A stretch of 64,000 nucleotides of DNA from Amphirosellinia nigrospora (Eukaryota > Ascomycota > Sordariomycetes > Xylariales > Xylariaceae). Numbering within the stretch: the first letter of the stretch is position 1; the number at the start of each line of letters is the position of its first letter. A program made the translations under genes and the position numbers. Below the pieces are notes generated by a model. That model did not search any database and was not told the DNA's origin. It saw only the letters and a program-made list of their open reading frames with translations. The stretch spans positions 11,257,569-11,321,568 of the forward strand of contig SCHM01000002.1 of the NCBI GenBank assembly GCA_004123355.1. Reading direction: 5' to 3'. Below are positions 2,821 to 47,500 of this stretch, piece by piece.

Positions 2821-3467
2821 ATGAAGTACTCCGTCGCTATCCTGGCCCTCGTCGCCGCCGCCTCGGCTCAGTCCATCAACGACATCCCAAGTGTGCCCAG
2901 CCTTGCATCGACGCTTCGCGTACCAAGGACACTTCTTGCAGCGCTACCGACTTCAAGTGCATTTGTAAGTCAACATGACGCATCATGATTATGATGGCTA
3001 AGCCGTACACATTAACTCGATGACTAACACATTCGACAGGCGACAACATCGACAAGCTCACTGCTGACGGCACCAGCTGCGTCCTGAGCGCTTGCGGTGC
3101 TGACACTGCCCTCAACGAGGTCCTCCCCGGCGTCAAGAAGTTCTGCGCCGCCGTCTCGGCCGCGCCCGCCTCGTCGACCCCGGCTTCCACCCCCGTCGCT
3201 TCTTCCTCTGCGGCCTCCACCCCCGCCGCCTCTTCCTCGGCGGCCGGTTACCCTACCGAGGGCACGACCTCCAAGCCCACCGTCACCCCTACCCAGAGCT
3301 CGCACCCCGTCAGCACCACCTCGGCTCCCACCTACCCCGCCGGCGGCAACTCCACCAGCACTCCCACCCACTCGTCCTCGACCCTGATCCCCACCGCCGG
3401 TGCCGCTGTCGCCGGTTCCGTCGGTGGCCTCGCCATGCTCGCCCTCGGTGCCCTCGCCGCCTTCTAA
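2821..3467 (+). CDS. CFEM-domain GPI-anchored cell-surface protein
   Basis: Two exons, 2821-2964 and 3040-3467, flank an intron with GTAAGT donor, TGACTAAC branch site and GACAG acceptor. The protein (about 190 residues) starts with a signal peptide (MKYSVAILALVAAASAQS). A CFEM domain follows with eight cysteines in the usual order, including CAQPC, DFKCIC and CVLSACG. Next come a Ser/Thr/Pro/Ala-rich stalk and a hydrophobic C-terminus typical of GPI attachment. CFEM proteins sit in the wall or plasma membrane and several bind heme; the Asp before FKCIC matches the heme-ligand position known for the family. One base appears to be missing near 2889: as given, the frame breaks just before the first CFEM cysteine, and adding one base makes the coding length divisible by three. 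Exact role (heme uptake, wall structure, effector) cannot be told. Confidence 0.85.
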
Positions 3468-6053
3468 GCGCGCCCTGTCTGATGACCGAGTAATCGCGGT
3501 AACGACATGGGTGACGAAGAAACGAAACGCAAGGTCTGGGGCTATGTTGGCTATTGTATTAAAATCCGCCGTGTACTCTAAGGCGTAGTCCGTACTCTTA
3601 ATTAATGTAATACGACGTTTTCCCGATCTTGACATGCTTGCATGAAGTCTTACTACTAAATAATGAACCTCTACCTAATTATAAGATCATCTTGAACGGG
3701 GTATCAAGTCAGGAGTAATCTTCCTCTTAGAGATGCTAGAATTATGTGATACTGTTCTGTTGAAATTAGCAGTTTCTAGAGATGAATAGTTAACCCCCCT
3801 TTCACTTCCTCATGCAAAGTGAATACATGATATCCAAATACAGCGAGGGCAGACTACCAAAAGGGAAATCAGAACAAATCAAGACCGCATTAGATTCCCG
3901 GAACATTTTTACTTTTTCGGTCAAACAACCATCAGATATTTGTTCGCGGCGACTACGCCTCATGCCGTGCTCGCTGAATATTGAGACAAAGGATAATAAA
4001 TATATTAATTTTAGACTGCAACGAACCCGTCACACCGCAGGTGGAACCGATATTCATCTATCCGGATCACTGGACGCGTTAAACCAACACGCAAGGTGAA
4101 CAAGAGAGGGAGGGCCGTCTTATTATTTAAAACATCTTAGGTCGTAGTTCTCCAGGTTTGTAACACCAATCCACAGCTCTTGAGTGAATACCTATCAGAC
4201 GCTTTTCTTCTGTTTATGTCCGTGTGATATGATGGTACCACTACCTAAGATGCGCGGCGTGAGACTTTGCAAGAATACTATGGACGATACAGCCTAGACT
4301 CCCCATGTCTTCTTCACAGCTTAAGTTGGCCATTATGAGCGTATTCAGGTATAGCAAGCGATATATTCATCTCCATTGCTGTGCCTCTTCAGCCGTCGAA
4401 CGAGTCTCAATGCCGACTGATAATAAACTCGAATCGCGTGATGGGTCTCTCTCTCATATGATATTCAAACCCCGTAGGCGGGAAACTCATCAGAAACTTT
4501 TTGCCTGCCGGGATCTCACCTCTTTACCAAGACAGATCTCCCTTATTCTCCACCTACGAGTCACAGAGTCACAACTGTAGCACGAAGAAGTCGCCAGCGA
4601 GCCAAACATACAACGGGACAAAACGGTGTCCTCTTAAAAGCAAACCCCGAACGGAGCTCCATTGGATAAGAGCTGAATGAACTATCCCTAAGGTGTCCCA
4701 TAGGTACTATAGATCGAGGCGAGACGGCGAGGTAACACGATCTCGACGGATTCGGGTTGATTCACATTTAGCCCGACATCACACATACACGCTGACGCTC
4801 GACTCGCACAGAGCACCGTACGCACGAGAGAAAATTTCCGCTGACGGCTAGTTGTGGGTCATCCCATCGTTCACGGCGCGGCTCCTCCCAGAAGAACAAG
4901 CACACGAGCCTAGCCTAGCCTCGCATCGCCAAACTCGCGAGAGAGAGAGAGAGAAACCGCGCAAATCAGGTGATATGTAGTCAATTCCCTCGGCCACGCC
5001 GCAAGCATGCGGAACTCTGCTCCGGCTCGGGTTGAATAAGTTGAGGGAGTTACTATGCCATCGAAAGGAAAACCATTCGATATCTCGATTTCCTGTCTTA
5101 GAAACGGGCCCCCTTCCTAAACGGCTAAGCGCCACACTTCATCTGACACAAACACAGCTTTCTATTCGTGAGTAACGTAAAGAACTTAGGAAACGATGAC
5201 TTGAGCGAAACCCGTTAGACAGTAGCGTTGCAAGTATCTTGAACATCATCAAGCACTCCTTCAGCTGGAGGAAAGGAGGTATGTAGGTAGTCAGTAGATA
5301 CGGCGCCAAAGAAATAGAACATGGCCACGGTAAGACCACTTCCATCTTCTCTCCCTATTAATTTCTCACCTTGGGCGGCGTATGTCTGACCATGAACGGG
5401 TCGTCTGGTGCATCCATCCCGAAGACCAGACCGACCCGAGCGTGCTGCTGCACGAGGGCAGCTCGCGTCTCGACCAATCGCTCTCATCTCCAAAATCGCC
5501 AATGGTACGAGTGAAGAGAGATTAGCCCACGCCGAGTCGAGGCAGCGTTTTGATATAAATTCGCAGACCAGCATCATCGATTCTACTGTGTCTAGTCAAC
5601 GATGGACACCATGGCTAGGCTTGAGCGTCCCACGCAGTTGACTCCGACACCTTGAAGGGAGGATCATCATCGACTAGTCAAGGACTGTTTGGTACACTAC
5701 AGACGCGAAGAGTTGGACACCTCAGCTCCTCGGCCTCCCAGAACCGCTCGAGCCAGGTATATTCTTTCCTGAAATATTGAATCTAGAGACGAGGACAAGC
5801 CCCTTGCATTAACATTGACTCCTTACTGGCGCCCATCTACCGACGGCCATCCAACACGTCAGTATAATATTCTCTCATCATCTCTCAAAAAGCCCAGTAT
5901 TCCCTACGGAAACACTCTCCATATCCACTGCGACATAATCGACGAAAAGAGCATCATCCAGATACAAAACCATTCCTTAGCACGCAGTCAGTCAGTCAAC
6001 GTACGAGGATCAAGAAGGGTTAAAAACAACAAGCAAAGCCGGCAGACCAGACA
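3468..6053. other. Intergenic, no gene recognised
   Basis: Short unconnected frames only. A (GA)8 microsatellite lies at 4939-4954. The last 200 bases are presumably the promoter and leader of the first cysteine-rich gene. Confidence 0.55.
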
Positions 6054-6474
6054 ATGTGCGTATACCACCACCTCCACTTCCACCACATGGAGCCGTGCCC
6101 AAGGGCCTCGACTTCGAGGTGTGCTACATATACTGCGCCAACTCGACGCTGGCGCCTCGGGCCTCGTCGCCGTTGGGACAACAACAGGAGCTGGTGCGGC
6201 TGCCGTGCAAGGACCAGACGCCCGCGCCCGAGAGCGACCCCGCCGCGTCCGGGTTCGACTTCGACGACCCCTGCGCGACGGGTGGCTGCCTGCGGTCGCA
6301 GCACTGCGCGTCCGGGGGATGTCGGCTGGACGAGCTGGGGGGCGGTGGGTCTGCTGCCGCTGCGAGGGCGGTGGGAACAGGTTCAAGTGGTGCGTCCACC
6401 CCGTCAGGAGCGTGCCCGATTCCCTGTGCTATCATGTCGTCTGCCGCGGATGCCGGGCGGATGCGCAGGTCTAG
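6054..6474 (+). CDS. Small cysteine-rich putative zinc-binding protein, copy 1
   Basis: First of three tandem related genes. The start is set at 6054 because the protein then begins Met-Cys, as do copies 2 and 3. The frame must move twice, near 6095-6110 and near 6340-6350 (a G run); both moves fit a missing base, and with both added the length is 141 codons including the stop. Recognisable parts are CYIYC near the N-terminus, a Cys-rich middle with GGCLRSQHC, then GRWVCCRCEGG and the ending LCYHVVCRGC. The last two match WNCCWCG and FRCDHICCDTC in copy 2 and WTCCVCG and VPCGHGCCSQC in copy 3. The C-x-H-x2-C-x2-C ending resembles the central part of a RING finger, but no complete RING is present. 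Function is unknown; metal binding is inferred. Confidence 0.55.
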
Positions 6475-7312
6475 GTTCTAGGGGGAGAGAGGAAGGTGAG
6501 ATGAGGGTGGAGGGGGCGTCCCAACCTCGCTCGGCTTGGTTGTCTCATCGATAGGCGTCGTTGGCCCGTCAAGGGTTTTGGGGAGATGGTAAACTCTGGG
6601 GTCATCTCACTATGGTTGTACAAATTTTGAGAAGCTATTGACAATGGGATGCTGGATATATAGACGATATTAGATTAAGTTCAATCACTATTAAAATATG
6701 CGGGCAATTAGAGGCACAAGTTCCTGCGCGTGGATGCTTGGGTAGAATCTTGTCGTAGACAGACATTGTAATATCCAGGCCAGAGGGAATGAGGCTTGAG
6801 ATCTCCGTATCCATTTCTACTGGTAGGGATCATGACAGACGGGTACGTGCCGAATAATCCATGTGTGGATCATCCAGAATCTCACCAACGCAAGCCCATG
6901 AATCATAGGACCTCACTTAGAGAGTTGCATCCTCGTATTAAAATCAATAGGGACATGCATCCCCAGCTTAAAGAGTGAGGTGTTACTTGAAGATCTCCCT
7001 GGCTGTGGCTGTCAGGCTTGAGCATGGCTCAAACTATTGACCCCAAACAGCAGCGCGCATTGGCCGACGGGAGCCAAAGAGTTGTGAGCAGAGTGAGCTA
7101 GAGAAACGCCAGTTAGGCACGGTTGGAAATAAAAGAAGCTTTTGAGGCTCTGGTTTCCGTGGCAAGCTCATGGCTGAGGTGAAGCAATGTTAGCAATCGA
7201 CCTAGGTCCGAGGCAAAACTACTATCCAGCTTTCCTATAGCATGTCCGAATACAAGTCATAAGTATATGACACCCACTTCCATACCACTGAAGACAACAT
7301 CTTGAGGCCATT
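6475..7312. other. Spacer between cysteine-rich copies 1 and 2
   Basis: No supported gene; only short chance frames. It presumably holds the 3' end of copy 1 and the promoter of copy 2. Confidence 0.5.
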
Positions 7313-7728
7313 ATGTGCACCGAGACGTCGTATACACTCAGGTGCGAACACGTTGTCACTCGAACGCTCTACTGTCCGGATGCTCCCCCGTTGAACCCGC
7401 GGTCCCGAAAAGAGCGAAAGGCTTGTAAGAGGTGCATACGTAACTCGGTACCCTGGCCGCCGCCGCCGGACTTTGGTGCGCCTATCCAGTGTCCCTTGGC
7501 CAGGTGCCCGTTCGAGGAACGTGGGGGGTACTGGAACTGCTGCTGGTGTGGCAAGGAATGGAACGAAAAAGGTTCGCCAGGTAGAACAGAGTACGCGTAG
7601 CGCGTGTGGCCAGGCTGGATAGCTGATTCGTCTCAGGTCGCTGCAGTTGTATCATGATCATCGACAGGCAGGAATTTCGGTGCGATCACATCTGCTGTGA
7701 CACATGCGAGGCTGCCACAGAGCGTTAA
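7313..7728 (+). CDS. Small cysteine-rich putative zinc-binding protein, copy 2
   Basis: Exon 1 is 7313-7590 and exon 2 is 7668-7728, giving 112 residues with no frame break. The intron has a weak GTACGC donor and a TCGACAG acceptor; it was inferred because exon 2 supplies FRCDHICCDTC, the same ending as in copies 1 and 3. The N-terminus MCTETSYTLRCEH leads to LYCPDA, matching CSH...LYCPQA in copy 3. The core QCPLARCPFEERGGYWNCCWCG aligns with copy 3 over its whole length. Fourteen cysteines and two CxH pairs suggest one or more bound zinc ions. Without splicing the frame ends at 7600, which would lose the C-terminal motif. No named family is recognised; protein interaction or regulation is only a guess. 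Confidence 0.6.
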
Positions 7729-9047
7729 CGGTACACCGAGTCGACCCGCGCGGCGTTCACAGTCACTCGAGACGAATGGAACGAAAGGGACGCCTGAACC
7801 AGGTCGTCAGATGAACTCCAAGTCACATTGCCTGACTACCCAGTGGGCCGGGGCCGGGACCGGGGCCAGGGCTGGATACATTTGTAGCCGGTGAGTTCCA
7901 GAACCACCAGGATTAAGTTCGCAGTTCGAGTCTCTAATAAGCCCAATCGGAGACTAGGTTGTCAAGAAGCTATGACATTTTGATGTCGGACAAATTATTG
8001 CCACACAGCCCAAGACTGCATGGCGAGGCGTCGAGGCTTTTGTTCAGTAATCGTGTAAACAGTTGGTTGGCTGCGGCGTAGAGCGCCGCCATCACACAGA
8101 AGCGCAACACAATACGGGAGACTCGGGCCAAGGAGCCCATCGAGGAGAGACAGTTGATTCGAACCGGGTATGTGATGCTATCGGCCGTCGAACAAGCTAA
8201 GCAGGCAGAAGGTGAGGGCGTCCATTCATTGTGCGCATCATGAAGGTGGTCAACCGCATACAGGGATTCAAGGTAGGGATCTTCAGGAAAATGTAGGAGA
8301 GGAAAAAGAAAGACCATGCACTATGAACAAACTATTTATGATAAGACCAGGTCTCGGGTTACGCGAGAGGCTGAGGCGTGTCCAGGGTTGCTCACCTAGA
8401 CGACGAAGCCCAACAACCAGGTTTACGGGTCGATCCTCCCGATATATAGTATCTGCTTTAGAGATCTAGATCGGGCATGGGAAGTTGCATGTCGGCTAGA
8501 TGACACTGATGCGCCACTAGATGGGAGACAAAGTGCGACAGGCAGAAAGAAAAAGAAAGTCTAAGAGAGATTACGATTGGGCCGCGCGAGGACTGGGGAT
8601 ACCTTCGTCACCAAAGTCACTCTTCTTCTTTCGAGTCCTATTGGGAGGCCAGGATCTTACAACCGGAATCACCAGCGGTCATGTTGTTGGTGCCTGCTTC
8701 GTTGTCTTTGAATAAAAAGCAACTGGTTGATACCAAAACGGTCATGGCGCAGAGAATGCATAGTGCTTTTTTGTATCAGCTTGTTCCGTGATTCATGCTT
8801 TTGTGCCCAGCCATGCTTATGAATCATCGAGAAGTTGGATTCCGCATAAACAGAACATGTGCGAATTCCATCAAGGACGCGTGAAGCTGGAGGGACATGT
8901 GTGTTCATGGTCCAACATATAAGAGCCAGCGGCCTTGGGGGGGAAATGGCTTTCGGTATTGCCCAACAGCTCATAGTTGGCTATTGACGAACTCTTTTTT
9001 GCATCTTTCGAAGCCACCAGTCTCGAGAGAGAGTTGAATCGTCCACC
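7729..9047. other. Spacer between cysteine-rich copies 2 and 3
   Basis: No gene is supported. A short tRNA-like B-box match on the minus strand near 8150-8165 has no A-box partner at the right distance. The final part is the upstream region of copy 3, with a possible TATAAG near 8918. Confidence 0.5.
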
Positions 9048-9752
9048 ATGTGCCACGGACATCCTCACTACCACCCTTGTTCTCATACCTCAGTGAAGTG
9101 GTTGTATTGTCCCCAAGCCATGTTCGACTTGACGACGGGCTATGAGGCACCATGTGCCAATCCCATATACATGACCGCTCAGCCTGTCAATTCAGATTGC
9201 CCTCTCCAGAATTGCAACTTCAAAGCGCTCAAGGGAAGTTGGACATGCTGCGTCTGTGGGCAAGGCCCGAATGCGCAAGGATGGTGTACCGCTTTGAGGC
9301 AGGACATGAACTGGAATCCAGTAACGAAAGTGATGGAGAACATGGACGTCCCTTGCGGGCATGGATGCTGCAGCCAGTGTAGCCGTTATGGTAAGTTGTG
9401 CTGGCGTTTATAGAGCACATACAAAGTATCATGCTAACCCAATAACTAAGCGTCCTCGAGAGGATCGAGCCCAGAGATGTCGTTCGCCGACGTCCGCAAG
9501 ACAAGGACTGCTCGCAAGGGGCATAGCAAAAGTTCTGGACTTAAAAGATCCTCGGCGTACGACTTCAGCGGGGGCTTCTCGACCATCGTTGAGGAGGACG
9601 ATCCAGCACCTACCGCTTCTTCAGCAGCAGCACATGGCTCACGAGGCTCACGCAAGTCCACATACGATACCAGTGCCGACTATTCAACCAAGAAGGCGAA
9701 GACGCCAAGCAGCAGTAAGAAGAAAGGTTACAAGCAGCGAAGCCAGTTTTGA
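9048..9752 (+). CDS. Small cysteine-rich putative zinc-binding protein with basic tail, copy 3
   Basis: Exon 1 is 9048-9390 and exon 2 is 9451-9752. The intron is textbook: GTAAGT donor, TGCTAAC branch site, CTAAG acceptor. The frame is uninterrupted and gives 214 residues. Residues 1-115 carry the family core: MCHGHPHYHPCSH, LYCPQA, DCPLQNC, GSWTCCVCG and the ending PCGHGCCSQC. Exon 2 adds a 100-residue tail that copies 1 and 2 lack: Ser-, Lys- and Arg-rich, low complexity, with KKAK and SKKKGYK clusters that could direct it to the nucleus or to nucleic acid. Its intron is placed just after the last cysteine motif, unlike copy 2, where the intron precedes it. Role unknown; family membership is clear from the three-way alignment. 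Confidence 0.7.
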
Positions 9753-39927: not shown

Positions 39928-41345
39928 TTACGCCATCAGGGCGATATGTTTCAGTTCCCTGGAGCGTAATTCAATTCAGCACCAAGTCCACCTCAGGGGA
40001 GAAGACAAATACAGACGACCAGAAAGAAGGGAGAAGCCAAGAAAAAGGGAAGGAGGGTGAGGGGGAAACGTACTGCTGCACCTGTTCTCCGACCTTCATC
40101 GCCGGATACGTCACGACGCGGCCCTCGTCGCGACCGAGGTTCATCTGCTCGGCGCGCACGGCGCGCGCCCTCTCCTCGAGGGCCGGGATGGGCGCCAGGT
40201 CGAAGTCGCTCGCGAGGGTCCAGAAGAAGGTGCTGCTGATGCGGATGCGGGGACGGTCCGGGGCCTCGGCGCGGCGGCGGGCGACGGCGGCCAGCGTGCC
40301 GTCGTTGACGACGACCTCGTGGAACCCGGCCTTGACGAGCCCGCCCGTGACGTGCTCGAGCTGCTTGCCCGCCTGCACGAGCAGGTGGTTCCCGCCGCCG
40401 GGCGGGATGGCCACGGCCATCTTGCGCCCCGTGTTCCGCGCCCAGATGTGCAGGCCGGGTACCGGCTGCGCCCGTGGATGGTGAGGAAGTTGAGGTCCGT
40501 GTGGAACCCGGCTAGGATCGTGTCCTTTTCGCCGTATTTTTCTAGGTCTGAGGCTGTTGGGGCTAGGAGGTGCGGGCTGTAATGGGTGAGTAGGCGTATT
40601 GATGGAATTGGGTGTATTATATGTGCAAGGTAAGGGGGAATGGGGAGTGATGGCCGTTGCTTACCCGTATCGTCCCGCGTCACTGAATGTTTCGGCAGGC
40701 AAACCCATGCCGACGGCGGCCATCTCAGCGAGGCCGGTAACACTAGAAACAGCAAAGTGAGCCAGGCCGTCTCCTATCGTACATCATTTCTACTGAAGGA
40801 CAGGACACTCACGCGCTCTTCATACTGCGACCCCACTTCTCCATGACGGGGGTCCAGCGCTCGCGGATGCCGTCGGCGGCCGGGACGACGTTGTCGGCGT
40901 TGAGGCCGGGGAAGCGCGTCTCGTAAGGGGGGACCTCGCCCATGCGCCAGAAGAAGCGGCACTTGGGGTCGGGGGCGTGGGCGCCGACGTCGAGGGGCCG
41001 CTCGGCCGGCAGCAGGCGGCGGATGACGTCGAGGCACGGCTCGTCGACGGCGCACTTGGGCCGCTCCGTGTTCTCGAGCGTCACGCCCACCTGGAAGCTC
41101 ACCTCGGGCCGCAGGTCCGCGCGCAGCGCCGCGGCGGGCTGCGCGAAGTAGTCCTCCATCAGGTCGAGGAAGCGCGCGTTGTCGGCCTCGTCCACCCGGC
41201 TGTCGCGCAGCACCAGCGCCCCGTAGGCGATGAGGGCCTCGGCGGCTCGCGCGCACTCGGCTTGCGCCGCGGCCGAGTCGCGCGAGTGGAGGAATATGTC
41301 GAGGTCGATGATGGGGAGGTCCATTGCTGGTTCTGGGAGTGTCAT
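39928..41345 (-). CDS. 2-oxoglutarate/Fe(II) oxygenase, isopenicillin-N-synthase-like
   Basis: Four exons: 41345-40813, 40742-40665, 40576-40074 and 39958-39928, with GT-AG introns and matching phases. The protein is 381 residues once one base is added near 40460 (C run). The N-terminal domain begins LPIIDLDIFLHSRDSA (DIOX_N type) and contains YFAQPAAALRADLRPEVSFQ. The catalytic core has AGFHTDLNFLTIHG with the iron-binding His-x-Asp (around residue 229), followed by GLHIWAR and KMAVAIPPGGGNHLLVQAGK. The distal His is in KAGFHEVVV (around residue 291). The end VGEQVQQELKHIALMA is like other members and confirms the tiny last exon. Such enzymes oxidise small molecules, often in specialised metabolism. 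The Zn2Cys6 regulator starts about 1 kb away in the opposite direction, so the two could share a promoter region. Confidence 0.85.
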
Positions 41346-42372
41346 TTTGTCTGTCTGTCTGGTTTAACCTGTTACTTTCGTTGTTGTCGCGGTTGTCGTC
41401 GTCGTCGTCGTCGTCGTTTAAGTGAGGTGGGGTCGAAGGATGGGGATGTGCGAATAACCCCTCCTAGTGCGGTGGAAGATGCGCGCGGAGGATTCCGAAT
41501 TCAAGTTGGCTTTCTCGGTTTCCTTGATCTAATCGCCTGCATATGAGATGGAGAATCTACAATGTTTGTGTAAGGAATGGGCACATGTTCGCCTCCCTTA
41601 TATAGACAGTACGGCGCATTACCTTGGGTGGGTAAGGTAGGTTAGGTACCTAGTGAATGTTAGAAACGACCTCGGGAGGGTCCTACGGCTTTCTTGGCGG
41701 GTAATCTAGATTCACTTGTCGATTCCAACTGTTCATGGCAAGTGGTATTGTACAGGACTCGTTCTTTTGTTTTTGTTTCCCCCCCTCTATTGCGCCTGGG
41801 ACAACAATATCCGCCGGCTACAGCCGCTTTCCGAGGGGCAGCGTTCGAGGCGTCTTACCACAGTTCTCATGCGCCCAACAAATCGGGCATAGCTCGTCCG
41901 AAGGTGGCTACTACCTTCAGATTCTAGAGCGCTAGATATGGCGCGCGAAAGATTAAGTTGCACTCGTCTAGGCTTGTATGTAGTAATTGGCAATCTGACC
42001 TGAAATTCTGAAATTCCGAATTCGATCCTCTCGTTTTACGGTTTTTTTTTTTTTTTTTTTTGAAAAGGTAAATAAAAGGTTAATCTGTAGCGTGGAACAA
42101 CATACTCGCAATAGACGGGCTACCCCGCATTGGTAGCATCGATATCAATATCCACTAACTATCCCATCTCTAATGTATGCTTCTTTTCCAGACTGCATAC
42201 TGTGCTATGCAAAATATCATCAAACCTCACCTTGGCGGTATCCCCAAGACGAAATGGTATTATCGCCAAAATATATTGCTTACGTTAGAAAGGTAGTACC
42301 TCTACGTTAGATCCTACTAAAGGCTGACAATGTCTCTCGCTCGAATGGTACCCGAGTCGCGGAGTCTTCTCA
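41346..42372. other. Divergent promoter region with microsatellites
   Basis: Upstream of the oxygenase (minus) and the regulator (plus). It holds a (GTC)7 run at 41395-41415, a GGTAGGTTAGGTACCTAG motif near 41636-41653 and a run of 20 T at 42042-42061. No gene seen. Confidence 0.55.
42042..42061 (+). repeat. Run of 20 T
   Basis: Uninterrupted poly-T in the divergent intergenic region. Long A/T runs in fungal promoters keep nucleosomes away, so a promoter role is possible; its exact length is uncertain because homopolymers are error-prone. Confidence 0.7.
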
Positions 42373-44532: not shown

Positions 44533-47500
44533 TCAGCGACGCTTCTTTCGGGAGAAATGTTTCTTTTTGAAAAGAGCCATTATCCAACCCCAAATTTTCC
44601 CGCCACAGTACGTAAAGAAGACACTCAAGATACTACCAAGAGCAAAAGTGAATAATGGGTTTCGCAGCACTGATCGTACCCGGGTAATTACCTGCTCTGC
44701 TGTAACTTTCCCTCTGTCCAGGCCAGTGTCTTCCGATTCACCGACTACGTCTTCGACTCTTATTGAATCTCTTGGTGGTGTTTCTTCTCCATCCGGGGTA
44801 GACTCGAGTAACTCCGCACTCGAGGCTGTTACCTCCTGCTGGGTGAGGGGGGTTTGATCCAATAGAGCTAGTAAACTCTCTTTGTTCGGTACCTCAGAAT
44901 TAGATATGTAACTTCTCAGCGTGACCGGGCTGTCGTCAAACTGCTTTAACGCGTGCTCAAACCTTCGCGAACATGTAGGCGCCGTCGCCCTGTATCTGCG
45001 TCATCTTGTATTAGGCGGGATGACCTTAACTTCCAGATACCCCTTGCCAGAGTATGACAGCGAAACATCTCTATGTGCGCCAGATTCGAGGAATATCTGA
45101 ACACCCTCGGCTACGTAGGGGTCGCGGAGAAGGTTGTCGTGCTCGAGATAGCTCGTTAAGAAAATAGTCCAGAGGCTTACGTCCCCGTGTATCTGGTTTG
45201 GGGAGCACCCTTGCTGGAAAATCCACCTGAGAATTCTATTCTGTTCATAGTGGCTCGGGCCACTTTCCCTATCCCGAAAAGAGTGACCAGGACAAGACTG
45301 GCATATTCGACTTCGTCAACTGCAAAGGAGGATGGTCGACTTGTACTGGTAAAGTATTGGCGAAGGCCCATTCTTGCCGCGTAATGCGAAACTGACAAAA
45401 ATTCCACCATGATGGACTGCCCGCCGACGTCAATCGCCCACCGCCCTGTGTGAACATCGTGATGATCGAACCCAGGTTTGAATCGTCGAATGTACATTAT
45501 TTGGAGGTTCCATAGGGCCGGCATGAACTTCTCGGAGTCCGGGCCCAGGCGGGCAAGGTGCGAGATTGTATGTTCTAACTCTGCGGGGAAGTGAGGGTGG
45601 GAATGCGCTGGCTCTCTTGAGTATAGCAGAGCCGTCTCAGCGACCAGAGTTTGATAGATGGCGTTAAATACGTCGAAGCTCTGGAGTCGAGCGGATCGTT
45701 CGTCCTCCATCTTGCTTCTAAGCAAGAATTCGTGGACCGAGCGGTGAGTGAGTCTGACCTCTCCCCCTAGTGGCCGATTATCAGAATTCACGATTTCCAG
45801 GAGGCCCTTGCACCGTTTGTACAATTGCCGCCGGGCTTTTTCGAGCCGTGGCACAAAATCTTGGTGAGAGAAAATCTGGTCTTCGAAGTCGAGCTTCGAT
45901 GCAAATTCAGGGTCGTGATTGTATTCGTCCAGCAGCGAATACCTGAACAGAGACAAGTGTGGATCTGTTTCACTCTCCAACAAGCTCAAAATGATGGCAA
46001 ATGTCTGTGCAGATTGATCCCTATCTGATATGTGAATGGAATCGAACAGTTGCTGCAATAGGTCTTCTATTTCTGGAGGGGTGAATTCGAGTTTACGTTG
46101 CAGTTCTTCAAACGTGTCTTGATGATCGCAGGCATCATCTAACATCTGAACTACCAGAGCTACCCACAGGAAGACGCCACTAGCGCGTTCCTCGACTTGA
46201 GTAATCAGGATATCCTCTTCCCCCTCGGGCTTTTCTAGGGCAAGATAGTGATGGTTTCTCTCCAGCTTCTTGCGGACAAAAGTAAGGATATCGCCACATG
46301 TCAAGTCTTGTAACTTGAGGCCATGGGACCCCTGAAAGCTGTCTTGGAAAACAATATATTCCCTGCTAGACACGCCGACCTTGATATTGACAGGGGATTT
46401 CTTTGTCCAATCTGAAAGTAGGCTGTTTAACGTTTTGTATCCTTCGTCGCGGCTCTCGCGGAACTCGTCGAGACCGTCGATGAATAGGCAGAAGCAGTGT
46501 TTCCCGCCCTGGTTACTATGTTCCAAAAGCCGGTTAAACGCATCACGTATCTCGTCTCCATCAAAATTAAGCTGGACAGCTGCCTGCCACGGTAGCCCCC
46601 TGACTAGGGACCATTGTTGGGGGAAAGTCCTTTGTATCAGCTCGGGGCACTGCTCAAACACCTCGAAAAGAAGCGTCCGAACCATCGCAGTGATAGAGTT
46701 CTCCATCTCTGACCCAGTGCGCCAGAAGAAGAATTTGCTGACCACCAGTTTCCTGTCCTCTGCCCAGGACTCCAGATATTGCTTTGTTCGTTGATGCTTG
46801 TGTAGGAACTTCATTAGAGTTGACTTTCCTGCTCCAGGCTTGCCAGCGATATGGAATATCCCGTTGCCAGACTCCAGCCATTCTGTGAAAATGCATCTGC
46901 CTCTGAGCGCTCTGTCGTCTTTTTGTGGGTTTCTCGAATATCCACTCGAACGTGTCGGAAAAGGCTTTTCCTACTTGCCTATATCGCCGATGCATCTCCG
47001 GGAAAAAAGGCAATTCAAAATACGATGATTGGCAATTGAGTCTAACGCGGTATCAGAAAGCTTTAGTAGACTTGCTAGTTCAGCCTCCGCCTCGGTGCCC
47101 AAGTGGCTGAGGGTTACTCCTTTTGTAGGGCACCGACATGTTTCTGTAGACTCGCCAACTGAGTCTCGTTCGCGAGTCCCGTCTGGGCGAGGTGTCGGAG
47201 GGTTCTGACCGTGTCGGAACCCATCGTGATGGTCAATTGTATCTGTAGCAATTTACGACACTCCTCTACCTGCGCCTTGAGCTGCTTTTTCTCCTTTTCG
47301 TTCCCACCAGCTCGCAGTGCCGCCGCGGCGCTGCTGCGGCGCGAATGCGGTTCCTTCGCCTTGATGCGCCCCAGCACGACGAGCAGCTGCTTCGCGAGAG
47401 CGTCGCACTTGGTGGCGATGCGATCGAGCGCCTTATCGGCATTACTCTGCTCGGAGCCCGGCTTCGTGCAAACCATCGCGTCCGAGAGCCGGGAGAGCTC

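Follow-up and report, generated by a model that had tools for sequence, protein, structure and literature searches.

A diverged tandem family of three cysteine- and histidine-rich genes with putative zinc sites in Amphirosellinia nigrospora

RING fingers follow the pattern C-x2-C-x(9-39)-C-x(1-3)-H-x(2-3)-C-x2-C-x(4-48)-C-x2-C, RanBP2/NZF fingers follow W-x-C-x2-C-x3-N-x6-C-x2-C, and metallothioneins carry their cysteines in dense C-x-C arrays. The Pezizomycotina also have small unnamed proteins that begin with Met-Cys...C-x-H and contain W-x-C-C-x-C, a start and core similar to those described here. Three neighbouring plus-strand gene copies in a 64,000-nucleotide stretch of Amphirosellinia nigrospora DNA (the window) share elements with several of these proteins. 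Their C-terminal pieces have the RING spacing C-x2-C-x(9-39)-C-x-H-x2-C-x2-C, but all three copies lack the final C-x2-C and have no significant Pfam or PDB match. The eight-ligand RING pattern occurs in 0 of 5 segments, whereas its first six ligands fit in three of the five, namely the three C-terminal pieces. The description of the layout as three-quarters of a RING finger, given in the first-pass annotation, is thus right for the spacing of these pieces and does not extend to the full pattern. Similarly, the copies have the W-x-C-x2-C followed by Asn of the RanBP2/NZF pattern, but the Asn lies one residue further on and the second C-x2-C is at the wrong distance; this pattern is found in none of the five segments. 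The consensus ligand spacings of LIM, Zn2Cys6, GATA, MYND, PHD, ZZ and C2H2 domains are each found in 0 of 5 segments, and Pfam gives no match to these families. A zinc-ribbon-like C-x2-C...C-x2-C fits three of the five when its spacing is held loosely, in copy 2 through another pair.

All three copies begin with Met-Cys, at 6054, 7313 and 9048, as had been claimed, each with an A at position -3. Copy 2, as read from the sequence, has a first exon at 7313-7580 (MCTETSY... to ...GSP), a 56-nt phase 1 intron at 7581-7636 (GTAGAA...CTCAG), whose GTAGAA donor is weak as judged by eye, and a second exon at 7637-7728 that encodes C-x-H-x-C-C-x2-C and then a stop. The whole protein has 119 amino acids, rather than the 112 given before. 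Copy 3 has a first exon at 9048-9390, which encodes residues 1-114 and holds the entire conserved Cys/His region, an intron at 9391-9450 with canonical signals (GTAAGT...GCTAAC...CTAAG), again read from the sequence, and a second exon at 9451-9752 that encodes a 100-residue tail before the stop; its earlier length of 214 amino acids stands. The core module of copy 3 lies at 9198-9380 and reads C51-x4-C56-x10-C67-C68-x-C70 ... C103-x-H105-x2-C108-x2-C111. Codon preference, trained on 1,855 codons from Pfam-supported stretches of the window, scores the first exons of both copies best in their own frames. Their synonymous log-odds (-0.014 and -0.062) fall within the spread found at random positions (mean -0.12, 95% point 0.06), so that both copies look only weakly coding-like by codon preference. 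In the second exon of copy 3, it does not clearly separate the gene's own frame from a neighbouring one.

The three copies belong to one family and are paralogues, a kinship that follows from alignment scores against shuffled sequences together with an excess of identity in the Cys/His columns. Copies 2 and 3 align with a score of 110, which 0 of 5000 shuffles reach (best shuffle 80), and copy 3 aligns with the C-terminal piece of copy 1 at 72, again reached by 0 of 5000 (best shuffle 60). The alignment of copy 2 with this piece is weak (score 50, reached by 50 of 5000 shuffles), and 14 of 5000 shuffles reach the score of copies 2 and 3 when only their N-terminal halves are aligned. Between copies 2 and 3, 16 of 22 Cys/His columns are identical versus 16 of 79 other columns (Fisher P 8e-6); the corresponding figures are 8/10 versus 8/28 for copies 3 and 1 (P 0.008) and 8/10 versus 6/30 for copies 2 and 1 (P 0.001), all of these P values being too favourable because BLOSUM62 rewards aligned cysteines. 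That the tandem copies have diverged while their Cys/His residues stayed is thus supported. Copies 2 and 3 have C2-C11-H13-C21 (C-x8-C-x-H-x7-C) and C-x4-C-x10-C-C-x-C in common with identical spacing, and Trp, Gly and Asn are kept beside the Cys/His framework in all three copies. The sequence likewise contains the motifs first noticed, that is C-x-H followed by LYCP and CPL-x2-C-x-F in copies 2 and 3, and G-x-W-x-C-C-x-C and C-x-H-x2-C-x2-C in all three. At the DNA level, G-x-W-x-C-C-x-C matches 12 places in the 48-Mb genome versus 7 for a reversed-pattern control; three of the 12 are copies 1-3, on the same strand and within 2.9 kb, a clustering that is more than chance. DNA repeats between the copies amount to short matches such as chance would give. 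The picture of a trio therefore holds in its shared motifs and in the model of copy 3, and fails in the length of copy 2 and in the reading of copy 1 as an open gene.

Copy 1 (6054-6474) is Cys/His-rich, with its motifs spread over three frames. A frame 0 piece, MCVYHHLHFHHMEPCP, runs to about 6098, a frame 2 piece (...CYIYC...CASGGCRLDEL) covers about 6101-6335, and a frame 1 piece (GGRWVCCRC...CYHVVCRGC) covers 6337-6474. The frame 2 piece has C-x4-C-x-L (CASGGCRL) where copies 2 and 3 have C-x4-C-x-F, a match made less telling by a second C-x4-C in the same piece. Splice models with at most two GT/GC-AG introns at once, each no longer than 200 nt, do not restore a gene. None of 53,822 models with introns of 40-200 nt places C-x4-C and W-x-C-C-x-C...C-x-H-x2-C-x2-C in one stop-free frame, and neither do any of the 66,750 models with introns from 30 nt or the 81,774 with introns from 20 nt join both conserved parts. 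Among the models listed, some do combine the Met-Cys start with the last motifs; they were dropped because their middle falls in frames that are disfavoured by whole-piece codon preference. An open copy 1 gene of 140 residues is thus not recovered, and since the three pieces add up to 15 + 79 + 45 codons, about 140, the earlier reading probably crossed frames.

Motifs in three frames that no splice model joins indicate that copy 1, as far as its sequence can be read, is either a pseudogene, the relic of a former gene, or a gene into which the assembly introduced two errors. Codon preference broadly tracks the frame changes. For every whole piece, the full codon log-odds are positive in the frame that carries its motifs and negative in the other two; in windows of 20 codons, frame 1 beats frame 2 at 6114-6144 and the outcome is undecided at 6264-6324. 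The GC3 of the successive pieces is 0.93, 0.90 and 0.87. High log-odds and GC3 across successive frames resemble a gene that is still, or was recently, under selection, and the second frame change lies near a G run, both consistent with a copy 1 that is intact in the organism and was given two frame changes by assembly errors in GC-rich sequence. Two such changes would, however, have to fall within about 420 bases. We give this reading slightly less than even odds; it is an alternative to decay and is compatible with the main explanation given below. A separate feature of copy 1 is the distance of its GC3 (0.87-0.93) from that of copies 2 and 3 (about 0.60-0.67), which is unexpected between tandem paralogues.

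Known families do not account for these proteins in the libraries searched. Copies 2 and 3 have no Pfam match up to E 10, in a search where HMMER's filtering removes most matches weaker than about E 0.1, and the copies have no match in NCBIfam. Two weak Pfam matches to copy 1 were dropped, zf-RING_10 on its C-terminal piece (E 4.3, the only RING model matched up to E 10) and KCNQ2_u3 on its long frame 2 stretch (E 0.26). A profile search of PDB sequences up to E 10 returned carcinoembryonic antigen (0.04), a bud site selection protein (2.6) and rubredoxin (4.5), which we take as chance or as an effect of Cys spacing. None of the 35 stretches in viral contigs and 70 in GTDB contigs that match a pattern was confirmed. 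Placement in a known family by profile or library search had been set beforehand as the finding that would count against novelty, and Pfam, NCBIfam and the PDB all gave a negative answer; within these three collections, the statement that no named family has this layout is upheld. Titles and abstract openings retrieved with narrow search terms mention no such family. Two structure predictions that used four rows of sequence from the window yielded uninformative models with mean pLDDT of 31.0 and 38.8.

Protein searches of the 48-Mb genome with single copies gave no clear further copy, only the locus of the query itself and weak places that resemble chance matches. These searches are insensitive: copy 3 as the query missed copy 2, and copy 2 missed copy 3, indicating that the divergence is great and that equally diverged relatives would also be missed, as would relatives elsewhere whose module is split by introns. 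A composite query built from the copies finds all three by construction (copy 3 at E 1.9e-17, the exons of copy 2 at 2.8e-9 and 0.0045, and copy 1 at 3.3e-4). Its next match, at position 1825917 of contig C5 (E 0.23), has no module and no C-x-H-x2-C-x2-C in its frames. The letters at C1:11649847, which scores E 0.20 with a single protein and 0.0045 with a profile on selected loci, likewise lack the core module, and C1:7881464 (E 0.126) was dropped as weak after its frames were read. Scanning the window and the 20 kb upstream with a profile and the motifs revealed no fourth copy. The bare W-x-C-C-x-C, as DNA, matches 165 places in the genome (79 + 86) versus 65 + 45 for the control. Eight of these 165 places were read, plus 12 and 11 loci from other searches, with overlap between the sets. 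They contain 45 occurrences of W-x-C-C-x-C. With all frames considered over the 400 bases that come after each, C-x-H-x2-C-x2-C follows only at the window copies; 17 of the 45 are positive, all of them window copies that overlapping loci repeat.

The window occupies positions 11,257,569-11,321,568 of C4, an 11.77-Mb contig in a 48-Mb genome of 11 contigs, and a contig end lies about 0.45-0.5 Mb away. Neighbouring genes with Pfam matches encode a GH72 glucanosyltransferase with X8, a lipid-droplet hydrolase, a 5'-nucleotidase C-terminal domain, and BAR, Zn2Cys6/Fungal_trans_2, NACHT with DUF7791, UbiA and F-box/LRR proteins, a set that suggests a filamentous ascomycete. The NACHT gene, of the NPHP3_N/DUF7791 type, is a 597-codon open frame on the minus strand at 45177-46970; it looks like a fungal NLR-like protein and has no PDB match at E 0.001. 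The stretch at 40001-42000 has 61% GC and long open frames that overlap on both strands, and the one frame tested from it (40774-41463, minus strand) has no Pfam match. A tandem repeat at 3181-3245, with 2.2 copies of a 30-base unit, lies within a minus-strand open frame (3024-3674). The first 25 kb of the window contain 16 open frames of at least 160 amino acids. Nine of these were searched against Pfam and have no match at E 0.001, and the three that overlie copy 1 gave, in a separate Pfam search, the single weak match to KCNQ2_u3 (E 0.26). The tRNA search found none, and the Rfam search gave no family at gathering score.

The explanation that we prefer, at a probability of about 0.6, is that the trio descends from one small, probably non-secreted, zinc-binding protein of a filamentous ascomycete, and that its members are compact binding modules with putative zinc sites. 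An old local duplication of a single small zinc-binding gene would have given the three tandem paralogues, with copy 1 having since decayed or been misassembled. The framework C-x4-C-x10-C-C-x-C ... C-x-H-x2-C-x2-C fits best with a folded module that is predicted to bind two zinc ions. We infer zinc binding, the number of sites, a binding role and a cellular location. Two structural zinc ions, perhaps three, would most likely be bound by the conserved Cys/His residues, with one site in a tight C-x4-C-x10-C-x2-C cluster and another in a C...C-x-H-x2-C-x2-C cluster, and the Met-Cys/C-x-H/LYCP segment may form an additional metal-binding part. The proteins would then act as non-enzymes in protein-protein or nucleic-acid contacts. 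The tail of copy 3 has 31 Ser/Thr, 20 Lys/Arg and 9 Asp/Glu in 100 residues, and its richness in Ser/Thr and Lys/Arg suggests nuclear or nucleic-acid contact; this copy, with its basic Ser/Lys-rich tail, would most likely act in the nucleus or on nucleic acid.

The same residues could be arranged in other ways. In a degenerate or rearranged RING, the C-x4-C ahead of the C-x2-C would take the place of the missing end pair and so complete four ligand pairs in a permuted cross-brace; the function would be a recruitment like that of ubiquitin ligases. The fit of the first six ligands in the three C-terminal pieces, and the C-x4-C that in copies 2 and 3 comes ahead of them with a constant x10 spacing, are consistent with this notion. 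We nevertheless consider it unlikely, as the eight-ligand pattern is absent from all five segments, Pfam offers no RING model beyond zf-RING_10 on the copy 1 piece, and the three PDB matches include no RING chain. A metallothionein-like store or sensor, which would buffer zinc or copper through its cysteines and the His-rich start of copy 3, is suggested by the Cys content (16 of 119 residues in copy 2, and 14 of the first 114 in copy 3) and by the N-terminus of copy 3, M-C-H-x-H-x-H-x-H. Against this, the retained Trp, Gly and Asn, the fixed spacings and, in copies 2 and 3, the LYCP speak for a folded module, and the cysteines lack the dense C-x-C arrangement seen in metallothioneins, making such a role improbable.

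Small size and abundant cysteine would also suit secreted, disulfide-bonded proteins, and 9 of the 16 long open frames in the first 25 kb gave no Pfam match at E 0.001 when searched, indicating that this stretch is poorly conserved. Yet the N-termini of copies 2 and 3 are hydrophilic with a Cys at position 2, and His is kept along with Cys. On a Kyte-Doolittle scan, the values of all 19-residue stretches stay at or below 0.43 and the mean over the first 25 residues is hydrophilic, leaving no signal peptide or membrane span evident in either copy; an intracellular role is therefore likelier than secretion, which we regard as very improbable. The preferred reading of a duplicated zinc-binding module leaves room for a bolder one, in which the module forms a zinc-binding fold that has no name, perhaps a RING-related permuted cross-brace, in a family that expands in tandem and loses copies by frameshift; this appears doubtful, if somewhat less so than a degenerate RING as such.

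The proposal that the locus might hold an undescribed system is not borne out, as what is seen is a small diverged gene family with one member broken as assembled and with no partner or mechanism. The family itself is real, small, diverged and tandem, with probable zinc sites, and there is no evidence of a system. If the fold is not new, the locus represents a routine case of a small tandem family that has diverged and has one broken or misread copy, and it warns that a broken gene may seem intact when motifs are read across frames. If the fold is new, the trio would add a small zinc module that is absent from the family libraries searched, and would provide names for genes that fungal annotations would leave hypothetical.
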